Shown: positions 8,275 through 64,000 of the stretch, piece after piece
How the letters are laid out: the number at the start of each line of letters is the position of its first letter
Numbering within the stretch: position 1 is the first letter of the stretch
DNA from: Rhizophagus irregularis
Taxonomy: Eukaryota > Glomeromycota > Glomeromycetes > Glomerales > Glomeraceae
Direction: 5' to 3'
Length of the DNA: 64,000 nt
Assembly: GCF_026210795.1 (NCBI RefSeq)
Contig: NC_089430.1
Coordinates: 4,278,001 to 4,342,000 of the forward strand
Translations under genes and position numbers: made by a program
Notes under the pieces: model-generated
What the model saw: the letters and a program-made list of their open reading frames with translations, nothing else
Database searches by the model: none
What the model was told of the DNA's origin: nothing

Positions 8275-9906
8275 ATGAGTGTTAATATTAAAAATAATGT
8301 AGTATCTGAATTTAATGAATTAAATATTTCCGACAAAGATCCAAATTCATCAAAAATTGATCATGAAAATTGTTATGACCTAGATGATAAAAAGTTTTGG
8401 TGTAAAGAATGTGTTCCTCGTTGCATAATTGAAGGATGGACTAGTGGAAATGATGATATTGATAATTTTATCAAGGATACGATTTATAATGTAGGTGGAG
8501 AGTGTTATCCATCATTTCTTGAATGGGTTCCATTTGATAAATTTAAAGATATGAAACAAATAGGTGAAGGTGGATTTGCAAAAGTGTATTCTGCAACTTG
8601 GATTGATGGTATAGCAAAATACACTAAACAAGATGATGAAAATTGGATAAAAATAAAACCTAAATCCATGCAAGTTGCTTTGAAAAGGCTAAATGGATCA
8701 AAGAATATGTCAGCTGATTTTTTAAACGAGGTATTTTTTTTATCATATGTACTTATTTATAATTTTAATAACTATTATTAAGATTAATTTAATTTATTTT
8801 AATTTGTATAATAGCTTAAAACACATTGGAAATTAAATTGTTTACAAAATAATTCTTTAAAATTTTATGGAATAACTAAAGATCCAGAAACTGAAGAATT
8901 TATGATGGTTATGGAATATGCAAAAGATGGAAATTTGAGAAATGTTCTTTCAAGTGATTTTAACAAAATTTTATGGGTCACCAAAATTAGATATTTATAC
9001 TTTTCAGCAATGGATCTTAAAAATTTACATGAATTAGGATATTTTCATAGAGATTTTCATAGTGGAAATATATTAAATATTAGTGGAGCTTCTTATATAT
9101 CAGATTTTGGATTATCCGGACAATTAAATGAACAAAACTTAGATAATAAAATATATGGTGTATTGCCATATATTGCTCCAGAAGTTTTAAATAGAGAACC
9201 ATATACATTATCTTCTGACATTTATAGTTTTGGTGTAGTTATGACTGAATTATCATCTGGAAAACCTCCTTTTCATAAAAGAAAACATGACATTAGTTTA
9301 GCATTAAAAATATGTAATGGACTCAGACCAGAATTTGGAAAAGGAACTCCCGAAATTTATAAGAAATTAGCTCATAGATGTATGAATGCTAATCCAAATC
9401 AAAGGCCAACAGCCAATGAATTATATAAAATATTAGATTGTTTGAATGGTCATAAAGATAATGAAAAATATGGATATAAAGGAGAAGAAGTTAAAGCTAT
9501 ATTTGAAGAAGCTGATAAAGAAATACCAAATATTTCAACCTCATATGAAAAGAAGCCTGATGCCATTTATACTAGTAGAGCATTTACATTTAAAAATTTG
9601 TCAAAACCCATTAATTCATCTTTTATTACTACTACATATCTTAATGAAGAAGATAATAAAGGTACTGCATTTTGTATTATTATTTAATTTTTATAAATAA
9701 TTAAGATAATAACTAATTTTATTTATTATAATAGGTTGTCAAGATTCTCAATTAATTGACCTTGAGATTCCTAACACATCAAAGTTAAAAGGTAAATATA
9801 ATCCACTAGTATATTTATGATATTAATTTCATGATGTAAAATAAAAAACGTATTATTAATGTTTTATTACTAATTTTTATTAATAGACGGAAATAGTGAT
9901 AACTAA
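8275..9906 (+). CDS. TKL-type protein kinase with N-terminal WTSGN region (kinase 1)
   Basis: Predicted serine/threonine (TKL-like) kinase of 459 aa from four exons: 8275-8730, 8815-9661, 9735-9791, 9887-9906 (stop 9904-9906). All introns are GT-AG and the phases agree with kinase 2. Visible parts: N-terminal FWCKEC Cys pair (41-46), WTSGN motif (55-59), glycine loop GEGGFAKVY (97-105), beta-3 Lys in VALK (K137), catalytic HRD (230-232) with downstream Asn237, DFG (249-251), APE (273-275), DIYSFG activation segment helix. All key catalytic residues are present, so it should be active. The FWCKEC/WTSGN layout is typical of the expanded kinase family of arbuscular-mycorrhizal fungi. The last two tiny exons (57 and 20 nt) are conserved in kinase 2. 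Substrate unknown. Confidence 0.88.
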
Positions 9907-14945: not shown

Positions 14946-16376
14946 TAAGTAAAATTAGTCATTTATCTTAATTATTTTTAAAAATTTAATACCTTCACTG
15001 TCTTCTGAAAATGCTCCTTTTTCAAATTCTGGTTTGAGTCCATTACATATTTTTAATGCTAAGCTATTATCATGATTTCTTTTATAAAAAGGCGGTTTTC
15101 CAGTTGATAATTCAGCCATAATAACACCAATACTATAAATGTCAGAAGATAATGTATATGGTTCTCCATTTAAAACTTCTGGAGCAATATACGGTAACAC
15201 ACCATATATCTTATCTAATTTTGTTTATTTGATGGTCCAGATAATCCAAAATCTGATATATAAGAAGCTCCACCACTATTTAATATATTTCCACTATGAA
15301 AATTTCTATGAAAATATCCAAATTCATGTAAATTTTTAAGGTCCAATGTTAGCATACGTAAATAATTAATTTTCTCATTCCATAAAATTTTGTTAAAATT
15401 ATTTGAAAGAACATTTCTCAAATTTCCATTTTTTGCATATTGCAAGACCATCATAATTTCTTCAGTTTCTGGATCTTTAGTTATTCCATAAAACTTTAAA
15501 GAATTACTTTGTAAACAATTTAATTTTCAATGTGTTTCAAGCTATTATTCAAATTAAAATAAATTAGATAAATTTTAATAATTATGTTGAGAAAAACTGA
15601 TACATTTAAAAATATCAAATCCAATCGGAAAAATTACCTCATTTAAAAAATCAGCTGACATATTCTGTGATTCATTTAGTAGTTTCAAAGCAACTTTTAT
15701 GGATTTAGGTTCTTCTTTTATCCAATTTCCATCATCTTGTTTAATATATTTTGCCATACCATCAATCCAAGTTACAGAATACACTTTTGCAAATCCACCT
15801 TCACCTATTTGTTTCGTATCTTTAAATCAATCAAATGGAAACCCATTCAAGAAATATTGGACAATATTTACAATTACCAGTATGTTCCCCATAACGTACA
15901 TCATAAATCGTATCCTTGATAAAATTATCAATATCATCATTTCCACTGGTCCATCCTTCAATTATGCAACGAACACATTCTTTACACCAAAATTTGTCAT
16001 TATCTGGGTCATAACAATTTTCATGATTAATTTTTGATGAATTTAGATCTTTATCAGAAATATTTAATTTATCAAATTTAGATACTAATTGATTTTCATT
16101 GTTAAAACTCATAAATTTTGTTAAGAGTAAGTTTGTTTCAAAAGAATTCCACGGTTATAAAAAAAAAGGATCGGCATAAATTTAGCCGATATAAATCATT
16201 TTCTGCGGTATGATCATCGGGAGGAAATTTAGCCGAACTCCGAACTCACGACACTATTGCAGATCGCATTGATGACTACTTTGTGGGTTGCGTGACTTGT
16301 GTCTATGGATATTAGGAGTACTTAGTTTTTAAGGTGGTTAAATCTAGTTTTAGTTGATTAGTAATAAGATGCTTTA

Positions 16377-50341: not shown

Positions 50342-51979
50342 TTAGTTAATACTATCACCATCTGTTATTTAAAGTTTAAAATAAAACATTGGTGAATTAG
50401 TTTTAATTTTACATCATAAAAATAATATCACGAATATATAATAGATTATATTTACCTTCTAACCTTGATGTGCTAGGAACTTCTAAGTTAATTAATTGAG
50501 AATCTTGACAACCTATCAAATTAAATAAGTTTTAATTATTTAATAAAATTTAAAAAATATAATATAGTAAAATGTAATACCTTCATTATCTTCTTCATTA
50601 AGATATGTAGTAGCAATAAAAGATGAATTAATAGGTTTTGACAAATTACTGAATGTAAATGCTCTACTAGTATAAATAGCATCAGGTTTTTTTTCATTTG
50701 AGGTTGAAATATTTGGTATTTCTTTATCAGCTTCTTCAAATACAGCTTTAACTACTTCTCCTTTATAACCATATTTTTCATTATCACTATAATTATTCCA
50801 ACAAATTAATATTTCGTGTAATTCATTGGCTGTTGGTCTTTGATTTGGATTAGCATTCATACATCTATGAGCTAATTTCTTATAAATTTCAGGAGTTCCT
50901 TTTCCAAATTCTGGTCTGAGTCCATTACATATTTCTAATGCTAAGCCACCATCATGTTTTCTTTTATAAAAAGGAGGTTTTCCAGATGATAATTCAGCCA
51001 TAACTACACCAAAGCTATAAATGTCAGAAGATAATGTATATGGTTCTCCATTTAAAACTTCTGGAGCAATATATGGCAACACACCAACTATTTTATTACT
51101 ATCTGATGATTTCTGTTCATTTGATGGTCTAGATAATCCAAAATCTGAAATATAAGAATTAACGCCAATACTTAATATATTTCCACTATGAAAATCTTTA
51201 TGAAAATATCCTAATTCATGTAAATTTTTAAGGTCAAATGCTGAATCCGATAAATATCTAATTTTCCCATTCCATAAAGTTTTTTTAAAATTACTTGAAA
51301 GAATATTTCTCAAATTTCCACCATCTGCATATTGCATGATCATTATAATTTCTTCAGTTTCTGGGTCTTTAGATATTCCATAAAATTTTAAAGAATCATC
51401 TTGTAAACAATTTAATTTCCAATGCGTTTTAAGCTATTAATTAAATTAAATCAAATTAATATTTTCAAAAAAATTAAAAAATATAAAATATAAATGAAAA
51501 TATACCTCATTTAAATAATCAGCTGACATATTCTGTGATCCATTTAGCCTTTTCAAGGCAACTTTCATGGATTCAGGTTCTTCTTTTATCCAATTTCCAT
51601 CATCTTGTTTAATGTATTTTGCATCACCATCAATCCAAGTTGCAGAATACACTTTTGCAAATCCACCTTCACCTATTTGTTTCATATCTTCAAATCTATC
51701 AAATGGAACCCATTCAAGAAATGATGGGCCAAATTCATCATTACCAATATATTTCTCACGTGCATCATAAATCGTATCCTTGATAAGATTATCAATATCA
51801 TCATTTCCACTGGTCCATCCTTCAATTATGCAACGAGGAACACATTCTTTACACCAAAATTTTTCATCATTTGGGTCATCACAATTTTCATGATTAATTT
51901 TTGATGAATTTGGATTTTTATCAGAAATATTTAATTCATTAAATTCAGTTACGACTTCGTTTTCATTAATAAAATTCAT
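50342..51979 (-). CDS. TKL-type protein kinase with WTSGN region (kinase 2)
   Basis: A 467-aa product from exons 51979-51506, 51433-50581, 50512-50456 and 50361-50342 (stop TAA 50344-50342). All introns are GT-AG with phases identical to kinase 1. Motifs: FWCKEC, WTSGN, GEGGFAKVY glycine loop, VALKRL beta-3 Lys, DFG, APEVL, DIYSFG. The catalytic segment reads HKDFHSGN instead of HRDFHSGN. Arg to Lys before the catalytic Asp is conservative and the Asp is kept, so activity is plausible. The C-terminal tail, including the 57- and 20-nt last exons, is nearly the same as in kinase 1. Likely a recent dispersed duplicate in inverted orientation. Confidence 0.88.
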
Positions 51980-55991: not shown

Positions 55992-57534
55992 TCATAATTT
56001 TTTGTTATTATTATTAATATGTAAACTATTTCCGTTCATACACAATGAACTCCGACTAAAATTAAATCCACTACTATCATGAACCATTATGGCTTGAGAT
56101 ACATTTACTACCCGACTTAATTTCTCGTCATTATTTTCGAATGAGAAAATGAAATTATCTGATGAGTTATAAAATAGAAAACCATAACCATCAACAATAT
56201 AATCATCTCCTAATAAACTAAACCCGATAGAACTGTATCCACCAAAAAATTTTATTTGTATCCTTAATTTTGATTAGGACCAAACTTGCTACTCGTCCAT
56301 TACATTTTCTTCTAAAAGATTCATTACTAATTCCATCACGACTATTTATTAATCCAATTAATCATTACTCTTGCAAGTATTGTTTTGATAATATTTGATT
56401 TGTATCTTTCCTATTCTGATTGAAAAATTAATACTAAGCGATAAAGTTATAGATTTTGATAAGGCATCTTTATTAAGAAATCTTTCAATTCCCTCATAAA
56501 TATTATTAGGAATAATAGTTATACAAGGGTAGACTTTATAAAATAAGCCAGTACGAGAAATTTCCAAAAACCGAATAAGAGGAATAAATTGGTTTAAAGT
56601 CAACTTTAATGCTTCGTAATTCTCATTATTCCATTTAGATTTATCATTATTCTCATTCTCAAGACCAAGAGTTTGTTCAAGGCCCCATTTAATTAAATAA
56701 TCCCAAAAAGTAATTTCCTCAATTGGTATGTCATCTCTTTGAAGCAAACAAAAAAGTATTTCCTTATTTATTGAAAGAAAAGCTTTTGAAGACAAAAATG
56801 GTAGTGAACCCTCCGCAGATAGATTTAAAACAATAATCTTGTAATTTCTTGCAATTATCAAATTTAAATACATTATGTAGAATGAAGGCGTTATTTCATG
56901 AACCCAGCTGATTTGTTTTGTAATTAAGTAATTTTGAATTTGTTCAAATAACTCTTCAAGAAATAATTCATGGGATGCAACTAACAATTCAATAATATCT
57001 TCACCCAATTGCTTAGTATAATCGAGCTCACCAGTGTAAATATATCTTAAGTCAAAATAAAAAATAATTTCTTTATTAAAAACAAATAAATAATCAAGCT
57101 TAAAAAATATAAAAATTATCCTTACTTTAAAATCATTTCGAAAACGGTTGGAAGAACATTTGGCTTTTTAAATATAATCATATTATTTTCTTTGGTTATC
57201 CAATTAACAGCCCAGTAAAAAGTTCTTATACCAATATAGGCCAATTATGAAATGAGCCCATTCGGTATAAAATTTGGCCATATTTATTTTAATTTTATCC
57301 CATTTATGGTCCAATTTTTCGTACCAAACGGGCTCATGTATAAATTCAATACAAACCTAATATGAATTCAGTACAGGACTTTTTACTGGGCAGGAAGTGC
57401 AGTTTTAAAATATGTGCACGAAATTCTTTTGTATTTTGGTTTTCACCAACCCGTATTATTACATTGTAATTGTCTGCATTATTCAATATTAAGGAGAGGT
57501 CTTTTGAAAGATTGGAATGAAAAATTAATGTCAT
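55992..57534 (-). pseudogene. BTB-BACK-TLDc pseudogene E with MITE in exon 1
   Basis: Exon 1 begins at the ATG 57534 (HSNLSKDLSLILN, VGENQNTKEFRAH), loses about 30 nt around SVILRARSPY, and is cut by the element at 57211-57390. It resumes at NWITKENN and ends with a gtaag donor near 57127. Exon 2 from about 57046 is open through BTB-C and most of BACK (WDYLIKWGLEQTLGLEN), with a local shift near 56890-56810. It then breaks before TLDc at about 56358. TLDc is traceable in shifted frames to a stop at 55992 (SRDGISNESF, RRKCNGRVASLVLI, GFNFS). Confidence 0.82.
57211..57390. mobile_element. 180-bp TIR element in a BTB exon
   Basis: TIRs cccagtaaaaagt and complement, flanked by a 3-bp duplication cag (57208-57210 and 57391-57393). 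Removing it restores the paralogous reading at this point. The CAG duplication and CCC...GGG ends are shared with the element at 58861-60411. A 3-bp duplication would fit a CACTA/Plavaka- or Harbinger-type transposase. Confidence 0.8.
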
Positions 57535-57540
57535 TTTTTT

Positions 57541-58774
57541 CGTAAGAAAAAATAAAAAAAGGTTGCAAAGTATAAACGAACAATTTATTAATTTCTTTTT
57601 TGACTCAATTTTTGATCATCAATTATGAACATTTGATTGTTTCACATGGCGCCATTCAAATGAATTAATTACGTCATAGACTTTTTTTCGTCCTCTCAAT
57701 GATGAGGATTATATTGCGTTCAATAATGACCTGGTCATTTAAGCTTCCTAATTTTGATTGGTTGACGTTTTATGATTTAATTGACCGACATTTTCGATCA
57801 TTCGATATGACAATTTACGAACTGTCTTTTTTTTTATGGGGCGGAAAATTCGTCGATCAACGTGATTATTTTATTTTTTTATCTAATACTACAAACTATG
57901 AGTTATCCTACAATACTATGATTTTGTGAATGTTTTTTTCAAATAAATAAATGGATGAAATTTTATCCTGTTTAGTTTAATCATTATTGGACGAAAGTTG
58001 TGGATTTATTATAAGATGTCTAAAACTTTCTCTCCAATCGTTATTTATATTTTGTTTGACATTCATTTAAGTAATCCAAGTAAAAAAAAACAGCCTAATT
58101 TATTCAAACAATCTCGTTTATATAAAAAAAAAAAAGTTTGTTTAAATAACAAGTGTTAACTTTATTATAATTATGTTCATATTTATTTATATTTTACAGC
58201 AAGTTCAGTTGTTAAAAACGATATTTAACCACTTCTTTAATTGCTTTCAATTTTTTATTTTTGTTAATTTTTTATTATATATAAAAATTTGTCCAATTAT
58301 TTTTACATGATAAATATTTAGAAACAATTTTATTAGAATGTTCGAAAATCTTCAAGAAACCGTAGAAATTAATTTATTAATTTTTAAATAATTATTTAAA
58401 AATAAACATTCCGAATATAAATTTACTTCTTTAAAAAAATATCATATATTTAGCACATATACCGAATATTTTTAGTATGAAAATTATATGTCACATGATT
58501 CAGTATTTTTTTTTTTTTTTGCGAAAAAAAAATTGAACTTTAATATTTGCAGAAATGATTTTTGCATAACATACGAATTCAATTTATATTGAATAGAATT
58601 TTTCAAAAATATTGTGCTATGAAAATGTTTTGGCCAAAATTATGTAAATTACTTTTGAAATTGGTTAAGGGAAAGCTACTGTATATTTGGTTAACTTGTA
58701 AAAAGTAAAATCTGTCAAAAATATTGAATATTATTAGAAATTATTTTATCGTTAATACTATCACCTCTCCTTTA
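57541..58774. other. AT-rich stretch, nothing seen
   Basis: Short ORF at 57699-57929 has no support beyond length. Confidence 0.35.
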
Positions 58775-59219
58775 GTTCTAAAAGGTTACGGTACATTTCG
58801 CCGAAAGGACGTTTCGACGAAAAATAGGGCCAACATTATGTAGAATTATAAATAACTCAGCCCTATAAAAAATTGGATACGTTTTTTATAAAGTTTTTAT
58901 ACGATTTTTTTCCTTAGAAATAACGTATCATAATAGGATACGGAAAAATGCACAATTCCGTATCACTAAAAATATGGTTTGGATACGGAATTTGCACGGA
59001 ATTCATATGGAATTTACATATCACTGATTTTATCACGAAATTTATACGATTTGGTCACTGAATTTACTATTTGTATTACAGTTTACTATAATTATATTTA
59101 CATAAATCTAATTTTACTTTATTAAATTAAATAAAAAATAAAAAATAAACAAAATATAAATACATTATGAAAATTCCCTCCTTATTAAAACCACCTATTG
59201 CAACCAAAATTATCTATAA

Positions 59220-59690
59220 GTTCAGGTTCATTTGGAGTCAAACAACCTAAAAAAAACAAAAAAAAAGAAACATAAGAACGTCTAACTTAATTGGAAACAA
59301 AACCCCCCTTCATATAGTATCTGCAATCGTCCAAATCACCAAAGGTCAGTATTCCTACAAAAAAAGAAAGAGAACTCCAGAATGTCTGACCTACATAAAT
59401 GAAAAGAATTATGAAGCATCTGATGAAAAAGAAACCAAAACAACAAAATAAATCCAAAACTGACCTACAAAAAAAGAAGACTCTGAAGCAACAAAACTAA
59501 AACAACCCACAAAAAGAAAAGAATCTGAACCCAACTTACAAAAAAAAAAAAGAAAATTTGAACAGACCTAAAAAAAGAAAAAAATCCTGAACAATCCTAC
59601 AAAAAGGAAAGGACTCCCAAACTGATCTACAAAAAAGAAAAAAGAAACTGAATCTTCTCACAAAAAAAAATCTGCTGGCCTATGAAATAA
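59220..59690 (-). repeat. Microexon-like array 4
   Basis: About ten short units (30-45 bp). On the minus strand each ends in a C/T-rich run then tgtag or ttag followed by a block like GTTCAGATTC or GATTGTTCAGGA. It resembles repeated splice acceptors without clear donors. It lies inside the nested TIR element. Confidence 0.4.
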
Positions 59691-60060
59691 AAAGGGATAA
59701 ATATAAATAAAATAGAAAGGGGAATAAAGAATAAATCAAAAAAAAATATTTTTTTAAAAAGAGAGTAACGAAGTTAGGAAAGTTAAAAAAAATTTTTTTT
59801 TAAAGGGAGGACGTCAAAGTTAGAAAAATAAAAAAATTTTTTATAAAGAGGAAATAGAAATAGAAAGAAGAAAATTGTTTTAAAAAAAAGATAAAAGAAT
59901 AAAATCAAAAAAAAATTTTTTTTTTAAGGGAGTGACGAAAAAAAATTTTTTTTTTAAAGGAGTGATGAAAAAAAAAATTTTTAAAGTGAGGTACGAAAAA
60001 AAAAATTTTTTTTTAAAAGGGGGGTGACGAAAAAAGAAGAAAAATTTAGAAAAAATAACA
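59690..60060. repeat. A-rich degenerate tandem tract
   Basis: Repeated gggagtgacgaaaaaaaatt-type units of ~35 bp within the nested element. The minus-strand Phe/Leu-rich ORF over its end is compositional. Confidence 0.6.
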
Positions 60061-60685
60061 AAAATAAGACAAGAGAAAAGAGAAGGAAGGGAAAGACAGA
60101 AAGGAAGATCGGAAGATCAAACTCATCAAAGTAAGGGTTTATATAAAAACAAAAAACAAAACAATAAACAATCACGTGATCTCGTGTTATGATACGAGAT
60201 TTTTGTAAAATTATTTTCTAAGTTTAAAAATTCCATATACATTCCGTATGATTAATTTTTTCCGTATACATTTCGTATACATTAGTTTTTTTAAAAAATG
60301 TTCAAAAATGAATTGCTTATTAAATATACGGAATTTGTATACAGAATCTATAGAAACGTACATAAAATGTATACAAAACGTATCCTTTCCGTATACATAT
60401 TTCTTATAGGGCAGGCCAGATTATTTTTCGACGAAATGGCTTTCGGCGAAATGTCCCGATACCGTTCTAAAATGTAGATCATTTCAAATATTGAACATTT
60501 TTATTTAAAAAAAGAAAGACTTACTCAACACATTATTTCGGTCTAACCAAAAATAACTTTGAAACCATAAGTACATAAATTTGTATCACACGAGGATGCG
60601 CCCTTACGTATAAATTTATTTATTTATATATCGTTACAAATAAGATTTTATTCAAAAAATTTTTTAGGTTGTTTAAATAATAATA

Positions 60686-63600
60686 ATGTCCTTTGAAGAA
60701 ATTGAAAGTAATAATTATTTAGAATACTTAAAAAAGAATTTTAAAAGCTGGACCAGTGGAAATGAACAAATTGATAATTTTGTCCAAGAAATGCAATTGA
60801 ATAATATTAAAGGCCATCATGATATTATATTTGAGTGGATACCATATAATCAGTTTTATGAAATCAAAGAAACAAAAAAAAATGATTTTATTACAGTATA
60901 TTCAGCAATATGGAAAGATGGCCCATTATGTAAGATTTTTTGGAGTGATAAACGTACAAGAAGTTCAAATAATAAAGAAGTTGCTTTAAAATGTTTGCAT
61001 AACTCACGTAATCCAATTGAATCTCTAATAAATGAGGTATAGCATTTTTATATATAACTTAATGTAATGTTTCTTACTGTAATTTATCTATTTGATTTAT
61101 TCATTAATCTTTTAGGTTAAAAGGTATTCAGTAAAAAAACTTGGTATTAAAATATATGGAATATCTCAGAATCCAGATACAAATGATTATATTCTAGTTC
61201 AATATAATTTCATTGTAAATTGTATGAGTGGCAATGAAAAAATTGATAATTTCATTCAAGAAATGCAATTGGAAACCAGTTATTCTAATATAGTATTTGA
61301 ATGGATAACATATAACCAGTTTTATGAAATTAAAGAAACGGGATAAAATGGTTTTATGACAGTATATTCAGCAATATGGAAAGATGGCCCATTATGTAAG
61401 AATGTTTGGGATGGTAAATGTACAAGAAATTCAAATAATAAAGAAGTTGCTTTAAAATGCTTGCATAACTCACATAATCCAATTGAATCTTTAATAAATG
61501 AGGTATAGCATTTTTATATATAACTTAATGTTTCTTATTGTAATTTATCTATTTGATTTATTCATTAATCTTTTAGGTTAAAAGGTATTCAGTAAAAAAA
61601 CTTGGTTATGAATTTATTAAAATATATGGAATATCTCAAAATCCAGATACAAATGATTATATTCTAGTTCAAAACAATTTCATAAATCTTGTAAATTTGA
61701 TGAGTGGCAATGAAATAACTGATAATTTCATTCAAGAAATGCAATTGGAAACCAATTATACTAATATAGCATTTGAATGGATACCATATAACCAGTTTTA
61801 TGAAATTAAAGAAATGGGAAAAAGTGGTTTTATGACAGTATATTCAGCAATATGGAAAGATGGCCCATTATGTAAGAATGTTTGGGATGGTAAATGTACA
61901 AGAAATTCAAATAATAAAGAAGTCGTCTTAAAATATTTGCATAATTCACATAGTCTAATTAAATCCCTAATAAATGAGGTATAGCACTTCTATATGTATA
62001 TAACTTAATGTTTCTTATTGTAATTTATTTATTTTTATTTATTTAATCTTTTAGGTTAAAAGGTATTCAGTAAGAAAAGTTCCTTATGAATTTCTTAAAA
62101 TATATGGAATATCTCAGAATCCAGATACAAATGATTATATTTTAATTCAAAATAATTCCATAAACCTTGTAAACTGGATGAGTGGCAATGAACAAATTGA
62201 TAATTTCATCCAAGAAATGCTATTGGAAACCAATTATTCCGATATATCATTTGAATGGATACCATATAATCAGCTCTATGCAATTAAAGAAACGGGAAAA
62301 AATGATTTAATGACGCTATATTCAGCAATATGGAAAGATGGTCCATTGCATTATAATTCTAAAAATGAAAGAAATTCAAACAAAGAAGTTGTTTTAAAAT
62401 GCTTGCATGACTCACATAATTTAATTGAATCTCTACTAATAAATGAGGTATGGTATTTCTATATATATATAACTTAGTGTTTCTTATTGTAATGTATTTA
62501 TTTTATTATTTAATCTTCTAGGTTAAAAAGTATTTAGTGAAAAAATTTTGTTATAAGTCTCTTAAGTTATATGGGATATCTCAAAATTCGGATACAAATG
62601 ATTATATTTTGATTTTTAACTGGACAAGTGGAAATGATAAAATTGATAATTTGATCCAAGAAATGCAATTGAAACCCAATCATTCTGATATAGTATTTGA
62701 ATGGATACCATATAATCAGCTTTATGACATTAAAGAAACAGGAAAAGATAGCTTTATGACAGTATATTCAGCAATATGGAAAGATGGTCCATTATATTAT
62801 AATTATAGAAATAAAGACCATTATATAAGAAATTCAAACATAAAAGTTGCCTTAAAATGTTTGCATAACTCATATAATCCAATTGATTCCCTAATAAATG
62901 AGGTATAGTATTTTATTTGTATCCGAATGTTCCTTATCAAAATATTCATTTTATTAATGATTTAGGTTAAAACATATTCAGTAAAAATATTTGGTTATAA
63001 TAAGTTTATTGAAGTATATGGAATATCTCAAAATCCAAGCACAAATAATTATATTTTGGTTCAAAATAACTTCATAAATCTTGTAAATTGTATGAGTGGG
63101 AATGAAAAAATTGATGATTTAATTCAAACAATACAATTGAAATCAAATAATTCTGATATAATATTTGAATGGATACCATATGATCAGTTTTATGAAGTTA
63201 AAGAAAATGGCAAAAATGATTTAATGACAATAATTTCAGCAATATGGAAAGATGGTCCATTTCATTATGATTATAAAAATGATTATTATACAAGAAGTTC
63301 AAATGAAAAGGTTGCTTTAAAATGCATGCATAGCTTGCAAAGTCCAATTGAATGCCTAATAAATGAGGTATAATATTTCTATATATATTTTAATTTTCTT
63401 ATTGTAAAATTTATTTTATTTATTAATATTTTAGGTTAAAAAATACTCAGCAAAAATATTTGGTTATGAATTTATTAAAATATATGGAATATCCCAGAAT
63501 CCAGATACAAATGATTATGTTTTAGTTCAAAATAATTTCATAAACCTTGTAAATTGGATGAGTGGTAATGAAAAAATTGATAATTTCATTCAAGAATTGC

Positions 63601-64000
63601 AATTAGAAACCAATAATAACTTTGATATGATAGTATTTGAATGGATACCATATAATCGGATTTATAAAATTGAAGAAACAGGTAGAAATGATTTTATGAC
63701 AGTATATTCAGCAATATGGAAAGAGGGCCCACTATGTAGGAATTTGCGGAGCAGTAAATGTACAAGAAATTCAAATAAAAAAGTTGCTTTAAAATGCTTG
63801 CATAACTCACATAATTAAATTGAATCTCTAATAAATGAGGTATAGTATTTTGTATATATTTTAATGCTTCTTATTGTAATTTATTTATTTTTATTTATTT
63901 AATTTTTTAGGTTAAAAAGTATTCAGTAAAAAAATTTGGTTGTGAGTTTCTTAAGTTATATGGAATAACTCAGAATTCAGACACAAATGATTATATTTTG
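60686..64000 (+). CDS. Tandem array of kinase N-lobe exons (partial, runs off the window)
   Basis: Eight homologous exons: 60686-61036, 61116-61502, 61577-61978, 62055-62447, 62522-62902, 62966-63367, 63435-63839 and 63911 onward. Each is a whole number of codons (117-135) bounded by GT-AG introns of 63-79 bp, so every junction is phase 0. A full unit reads: alpha-C/beta-4 segment (VKRYSVKKLGYE, KIYGISQNPDTNDYILVQ), MSGNEQIDNFIQEMQLE, FEWIPYNQFYEIKE, degraded glycine loop, TVYSAIWKDGP, VALKCLHNS and SLINE. The beta-3 Lys is mostly kept, but the glycine loop has lost its glycines and no HRD, DFG or APE occurs. Exon 2 has an in-frame TAA (61344-61346) and exon 7 another (63816-63818). Exon skipping would keep frame, otherwise the locus is decaying. 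Confidence 0.75.

Follow-up and report, generated by a model that had tools for sequence, protein, structure and literature searches.

What is encoded at the locus that begins at position 60,686 and runs over the edge of the DNA under study? By the window we mean the whole 64,000-nucleotide stretch of Rhizophagus irregularis that was analysed (contig C2, 4,278,001-4,342,000). It breaks off inside a series of similar exons, each of which carries parts of a protein kinase N-lobe, and a sequence-only reading had described the series as a polymer of N-lobes with no catalytic lobe. Is this a chain of half kinase domains, as claimed, or one part of a kinase gene? The locus was followed into the downstream DNA, and the genome (146.7 Mb in 32 contigs) was searched for others of its kind.

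On the plus strand the locus consists of nine phase-0 N-lobe exons followed, past the window edge, by one C-lobe exon (Table 1). The proposal of at least eight tandem phase-0 exons is hence upheld, and exons 8 and 9 in the downstream DNA bear out the expectation that the array would continue. The claim of a missing catalytic lobe was wrong, here and at 50 of the 63 array loci whose 3′ ends were followed, and a polymer without any such lobe is ruled out by the C-lobe at this locus and at most others. The C-lobe in exon 10 is complete and matches the Pfam Pkinase model with an E value of 4.4e-34. A catalytic lobe behind every unit, which the same reading had set down as contrary to its proposal, was not found either, since a C-lobe is present behind the last unit and behind no other.

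Table 1. Exons of the array locus, in window positions (continued beyond 64,000 in the same frame of reference).
Feature	Position	Strand	Content
Exon 1	60686..61036	+	Start codon, leader, SGN linker, first N-lobe β1 to αC start; without β4/β5 head
Module exon 2	61116..61502	+	In-frame TAA at 61344-61346
Module exon 3	61577..61978	+	Open
Module exon 4	62055..62447	+	Open
Module exon 5	62522..62902	+	Open
Module exon 6	62966..63367	+	Open
Module exon 7	63435..63839	+	In-frame TAA at 63816-63818
Module exon 8	63911..64288	+	Window edge (64000) falls inside the exon
Exon 9 (outside window)	64363-64710	+	Last N-lobe, intact GKGGF loop (GKGGFATIYSA)
Exon 10, C-lobe (outside window)	64779-65606 (C2:4342779-4343606)	+	HRDFHTGN, DMG, APE

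From exon 2 onwards the exons succeed each other at start-to-start distances of 444-478 nt. Each of exons 1 to 8 ends in NE immediately before a GT donor, and all of these except exon 1 begin with VK immediately after an AG acceptor. The order of elements within a module exon is the one that had been proposed: end of αC, β4/β5, SGN linker, β1 to β3 and start of αC, names that we assign from motif order and kinase anatomy. The β4/β5 sequence is YGISQNPDTNDYILVQ; after a short linker come SGNEKIDNFIQEMQL and EWIPYNQF, then the β1/β2 stretch ETGKNxxMTVYSAIW and a loop that varies, and finally VALKCLHNS with the first part of αC, which ends in NE. An intact kinase inside the window has its donor at the equivalent point after NE (GAG/GTATTT, near 8,730), in agreement with the exon boundary predicted to be shared with intact kinases. 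Likewise, a duplication unit that joins the start of an intact kinase's exon 2 to its exon 1 through the intron fits the sequence and is seen again at dozens of loci.

The in-frame TAA codons in exons 2 and 7 had been overlooked. Judged from its sequence, the copy at the window locus is probably decaying in view of these two nonsense codons, unless both exons are skipped; as the array exons are symmetric and in phase 0, skipping them would preserve the reading frame.

Several other features of the window were recorded. Just upstream of the array lies an inverted-repeat element of ~1.7 kb (58775-60472), the arms of which (58781-58807 and 60440-60466) show 85% complementarity; one 9-base sequence, GTTCTAAAA, occurs both at 58775 and at 60464. 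The element has the look of a non-autonomous DNA transposon and may be Mutator-like. Open frames at 56358-57615 (-) resemble a BTB-type protein by eye, and two pieces of them gave no Pfam match at E 0.001. Intact-looking kinase pieces lie at 8434-9495 (+) and 50801-51820 (-), and a kinase copy at 15018-15868 (-), with stops in its pieces, is probably a pseudogene.

The window locus belongs to a multi-locus family, for which we use the name array kinases. With module exon 3 as the query for a single module, the best 150 of 4,715 candidates were found to be clustered and spread over many contigs. A pattern for the module junction, in which β5 is joined directly to the SGN linker, had 88 matches in the genome versus 0 for the reversed control, in further support of the tandem exons described above. 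Contig C16 holds a strong concentration of arrays between 2.41 and 4.70 Mb, with 54 of the 88 matches. As the pattern recovered 32 of 243 known modules, a biased sample, the genome total of ~670 modules is to be read as an order of magnitude. The layout consists of a leader exon, about 9 to 36 N-lobe modules and, at most loci followed, one C-lobe exon; a module has ~130 residues and occupies one phase-0 exon, and the intron lies within αC.

Ten arrays were read at length and contained 9 (window locus), 29, 14, 13, 12, 11, 13, 17, 13 and 36 module matches, with split modules counted twice. In the longest of them, at C20:1,705-1,722 kb, none of the 36 matches has a stop and the C-lobe reading stops close to the expected C-terminus; if every exon were joined, we estimate a product close to 5,000 residues. 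The introns of the arrays are short and uniform, with a median of 74 nt, and the phase-0 calls outside the window array are partly assumed, as the splice rule demanded an in-frame GT and AG. Identical exons occur at C16:2.88 Mb, where two consecutive modules are repeated, and at C11 with one module; together with the short introns they support growth of the arrays by unequal exchange. No obvious hydrophobic leader was seen by eye in the first exons listed, which suggests an intracellular protein.

How the arrays end was followed at 63 loci: a kinase C-lobe was found at 50, a trypsin-like ORF at one and neither at nine, while three are undecided. Several of the 50 C-lobes are incomplete where the DNA read stops within them, and at least four look damaged (L026, L050, L069 and L079, split or stop-bearing). 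At the nine loci the models did not find a C-lobe within the 0.4 to 3.4 kb read beyond the last module match. In the ten arrays mapped, C-lobe matches occur only after the last module, and the internal units are without the lobe that bears HRD, DFG and APE. Among 27 C-lobes listed, HxDxHxGN is present in 24, HRD in 9, DxG in 27 (mostly as DMG) and APE(V/I) in 25, and by these motifs the kinase at the array end looks competent. All seven terminal exons listed start with the β4/β5 head of the preceding N-lobe, by which kinase and array are tied into one reading.

The exceptional ending was observed on C9 (3.339-3.345 Mb), where 11 module matches are directly followed by a 509-aa ORF (L008:1829-3355 (-), C9:3338829-3340355) with the motifs SNYHVL and GDSGCIW, on account of which we label it a putative trypsin-like peptidase. 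Pfam gave nothing above cut-off for this ORF, and only possible splice sites connect it to the array. A general fusion of arrays to such a peptidase was rejected: of the 30 places in the genome that match the ORF, the one on C9 is the only one in an array locus that was fetched.

Are the internal units able to hold ATP like the N-lobe of a working kinase? Among N-lobes placed immediately ahead of a C-lobe, 42 could be scored, and all 42 have the VAIK lysine as well as the second glycine of the ATP loop. In the modules that precede another module this glycine was found in none of 229, with asparagine in its place in 203, and the VAIK lysine is kept in 220. The count takes in matches that span both loop and lysine, and partial matches, including ten Cys-rich modules (see below), were excluded. 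Twelve further scored modules have neither a module nor a C-lobe after them and two more lie at an edge; one of the twelve, in L009, where an array on C11 is broken off, carries glycine as well as lysine. An earlier tally had shown the glycine in three of 220 modules labelled internal, which are that of L009 and those of L024 and L050, both later proved terminal. With the glycine rule fixed beforehand, fresh DNA gave no exception to it among 15 terminal and 18 internal modules. The description of the modules as pseudokinase units holds in a more exact sense: the internal ones are without the second glycine and have for the most part retained the lysine.

A second class of upstream module, rich in cysteine, is present in ten loci (C20, L022, L023, L024, L032, L038, L042, L072, L077 and L078) and sits just before the terminal N-lobe in nine of them; its position in L042 is undecided. 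By eye, its loop reads GKG(N/H)F in nine cases, with the second glycine retained, and DKSHF in L077, and the VAIK lysine is lost in all ten (VALLC, IALLC, VALVC, IALVC or VTLLC). Each of the two upstream classes looks disabled in its own way, and the terminal N-lobe, by its residues, looks able to hold ATP. The linker of the Cys-rich modules was also seen to carry a CxxC...CxxC-like stretch, which is zinc-finger-like by eye.

The glycine rule also bears on another way of using such a gene, in which one or a few modules per transcript would be spliced to the common C-lobe exon and the array would be a store of N-lobe variants. The module exons are all in phase 0 at both ends, so that any could be joined to any other in frame (although the rule sought in-frame splice sites), the introns are short and uniform as noted, and skipping would avoid the two nonsense exons at the window locus. 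Nevertheless, any of the 229 exons scored ahead of another module would, if placed before the C-lobe, supply it with a defective ATP loop, the intact loop being found in the last exon alone. We consider this cassette arrangement unlikely.

By the order of its motifs and its likeness to the terminal N-lobe, we regard the module as a probable kinase N-lobe. Pfam returned 0 families for five modules even at E 10, and for 69 modules no match to PF00069 or PF07714 above cut-off, with one module touching PF07714 at E 0.078; a module profile compared with the sequences of solved structures gave one chance match only. A structure model of a single exon, built from a 69-row alignment, has the expected order of strands and helices with a mean pLDDT of 64, rising to about 80 over residues 71-120. 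The 50 solved structures listed by VIA-align for this model are kinase domains, aligned from before β1 to αC, albeit weakly (Z up to 4.0, where values below 8 may reflect only a common arrangement). Foldseek gave no hit with E < 0.001, and its first rows were not kinases (first E 0.23). As each exon is made of halves of two neighbouring N-lobes, a weak single-exon model is unsurprising.

The internal modules are a lineage of their own. A 118-row tree places 89 of the 91 internal-labelled rows in a single group with support of 100/99, apart from the 25 terminal N-lobes, although that tree has few columns for its many rows and its bootstrap had not settled; the two rows outside the group are those of L024 and L050, the loci already mentioned as terminal. 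When the loop columns were left out, the division between internal and terminal required one change, as low a number as was reached in 0 of 500 shuffles, with an SH-aLRT support of 93 that is below the tool's mark of 95; L009, L024 and L050 were placed with the terminal group. A recent duplication of an ordinary catalytic exon was rejected in view of this separation.

The same result tells against an error of assembly. Highly similar tandem units are a recognised hazard for assembly, and the arrays might in principle be collapsed or misjoined copies of intact kinase genes. The units vary, however, in sequence and in loop length, the order of dead modules, live N-lobe and C-lobe is repeated at dozens of loci on different contigs, and modules of a separate lineage are not mis-assembled copies of terminal N-lobes. 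We regard such an artefact as highly improbable.

Whether the modules are being kept was judged from stops and substitutions. The exon set for dN/dS and codon counts comprised 147 exons with both ends found by the splice rule, and 134 internal exons remained once first exons, terminal exons and any not within 100-150 aa had been set aside. Their 17,200 codons include 18 in-frame stops, versus 1,198 and 2,693 in the other two frames. Among the module matches of the ten arrays, 12 of 167 have stops, all confined to three arrays (the window locus and two others), and seven arrays are stop-free. The lengths of gaps within exons had also been considered as evidence for frame keeping and were rejected, since the exons had been chosen in-frame and the counts are biased.

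By the Nei-Gojobori method the youngest pairs, those at dS 0.03-0.1, have a median dN/dS of 0.92, and the median falls to 0.63, 0.50 and 0.38 with rising dS. A neutral simulation with the base make-up of introns and transition bias gave 0.85-0.89, so that the youngest module pairs do not differ from neutral and the older ones fall below it; at dS 0.13 this simulation left 0.3% of modules free of stop mutations. Constraint varies along the module: low pN/pS (0.29-0.38) was found in β3, the linker helix and the EWIPY strand, and high values of about 0.9-1.0 in the β2/β3 loop, the stretch before β1 and the end of αC, which are either relaxed or diversifying. In four of ten arrays the median identity of introns exceeds that of exons, which counts against strong constraint; recent exchange along the arrays and the AT-richness of the short introns may account for this likeness.

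Part of these data would suit a history in which unequal crossing-over left by-products upstream of ordinary kinases, with most modules unused and decaying. Tandem debris would leave stops such as those at the window locus and in the two other arrays, and array ends such as the nine where the DNA read shows no C-lobe; it would also fit the several arrays in which introns match one another as well as exons do, and the near-neutral dN/dS of the youngest pairs. That seven arrays, including the longest with 36 matches, are free of stops is hard to reconcile with it in view of the small stop-free fraction under neutrality, and so is the retention across contigs of the diagnostic asparagine and of the lysine by internal modules. 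It has, in our estimate, a low probability.

A moderately probable reading is that these genes encode a kinase with a repeat array of ATP-dead N-lobes that would serve as a binding or regulatory scaffold. The exons would be spliced in genomic order to give a single long protein, and the arrays would have grown via unequal exchange through their alike introns. Each module would fold into a small N-lobe unit without the usual hold on ATP, and the array may be a repetitive scaffold or sensor for protein binding, by which the terminal kinase is recruited, positioned or restrained. Such a role is suggested by analogy with pseudokinase segments beside active kinases and by the conserved core of the modules as opposed to their variable loops.

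A more specific version is speculative and rather doubtful. Here the repeat unit is an ATP-dead N-lobe with variable β2/β3 and αC stretches, and the arrays would form a rapidly evolving repertoire for recognition inside the cell, through which cues of self or non-self are read and the end kinase is triggered. Copy number would be altered by recombination in introns, and the system would be the counterpart of plant tandem kinases and NLRs in a fungus that inhabits plants.

If the long proteins of the scaffold reading are made, half of a well-studied regulatory fold could be repeated as a building block, in chains of up to about 36. The confinement of a live ATP loop to the last unit offers a natural experiment in how a kinase N-lobe can be used in the absence of ATP. 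Since the modules are missed by Pfam, the expanded kinase repertoire of such fungi may conceal a layer of large scaffold-kinases; these, concentrated on C16, could vary between strains and act in symbiosis or self-recognition.

We found no earlier description of the array-kinase architecture in the literature searched. The full-text search returned no account of N-lobe arrays, and an earlier mention is possible in the pseudokinase survey of Kwon and colleagues (2019); nor do such arrays appear in the accessible portions of PMC10234402, PMC6123716, PMC8647823, PMC6170490 and PMC10260399. No relatives of the modules were confirmed in bacterial/archaeal or viral contig collections, which says nothing on other fungi. 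For R. irregularis, published work reports 2,533 kinase genes (PMC10234402), PF07714 as the motif that occurs most often in species-specific and expanded genes (PMC6123716) and kinases among the high-copy genes that adjoin Mutator-like elements (PMC8647823). The kinases at the array ends would belong to this same expansion of the kinase superfamily, from which the array modules differ in escaping the Pfam models.

Among genes with exon arrays, Dscam has many similar, frame-neutral exons ahead of a constant part. The array exons resemble them in being similar to one another, frame-neutral and placed ahead of a constant C-lobe exon, and differ in that the internal ones have a common defect that the terminal exon lacks.

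At the protein level, the plant tandem kinase-pseudokinases such as WTK1/Yr15 and RPG1 likewise combine in one chain kinase-derived units without a working ATP site and a putatively active kinase, and the positions that plant pseudokinase domains have lost include the glycine loop (PMC6170490, in which the Janus kinases are named as well). In the plant proteins the kinase is paired with an entire pseudokinase domain; in the arrays the internal units are N-lobes only, many per chain, and in a fungus. The plant tandem type is recognised by at least two complete domains in a row, kinase or pseudokinase, and the array genes do not conform to it, as their internal units are without a C-lobe.

In the Janus kinases the pseudokinase JH2 precedes the kinase JH1. 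The pseudokinase segment is thus N-terminal to the kinase as in the arrays, and its regulatory role is our working analogy. What distinguishes the two is that the Janus kinases carry one full, two-lobed pseudokinase, whereas the arrays of R. irregularis are a chain of half-domains.
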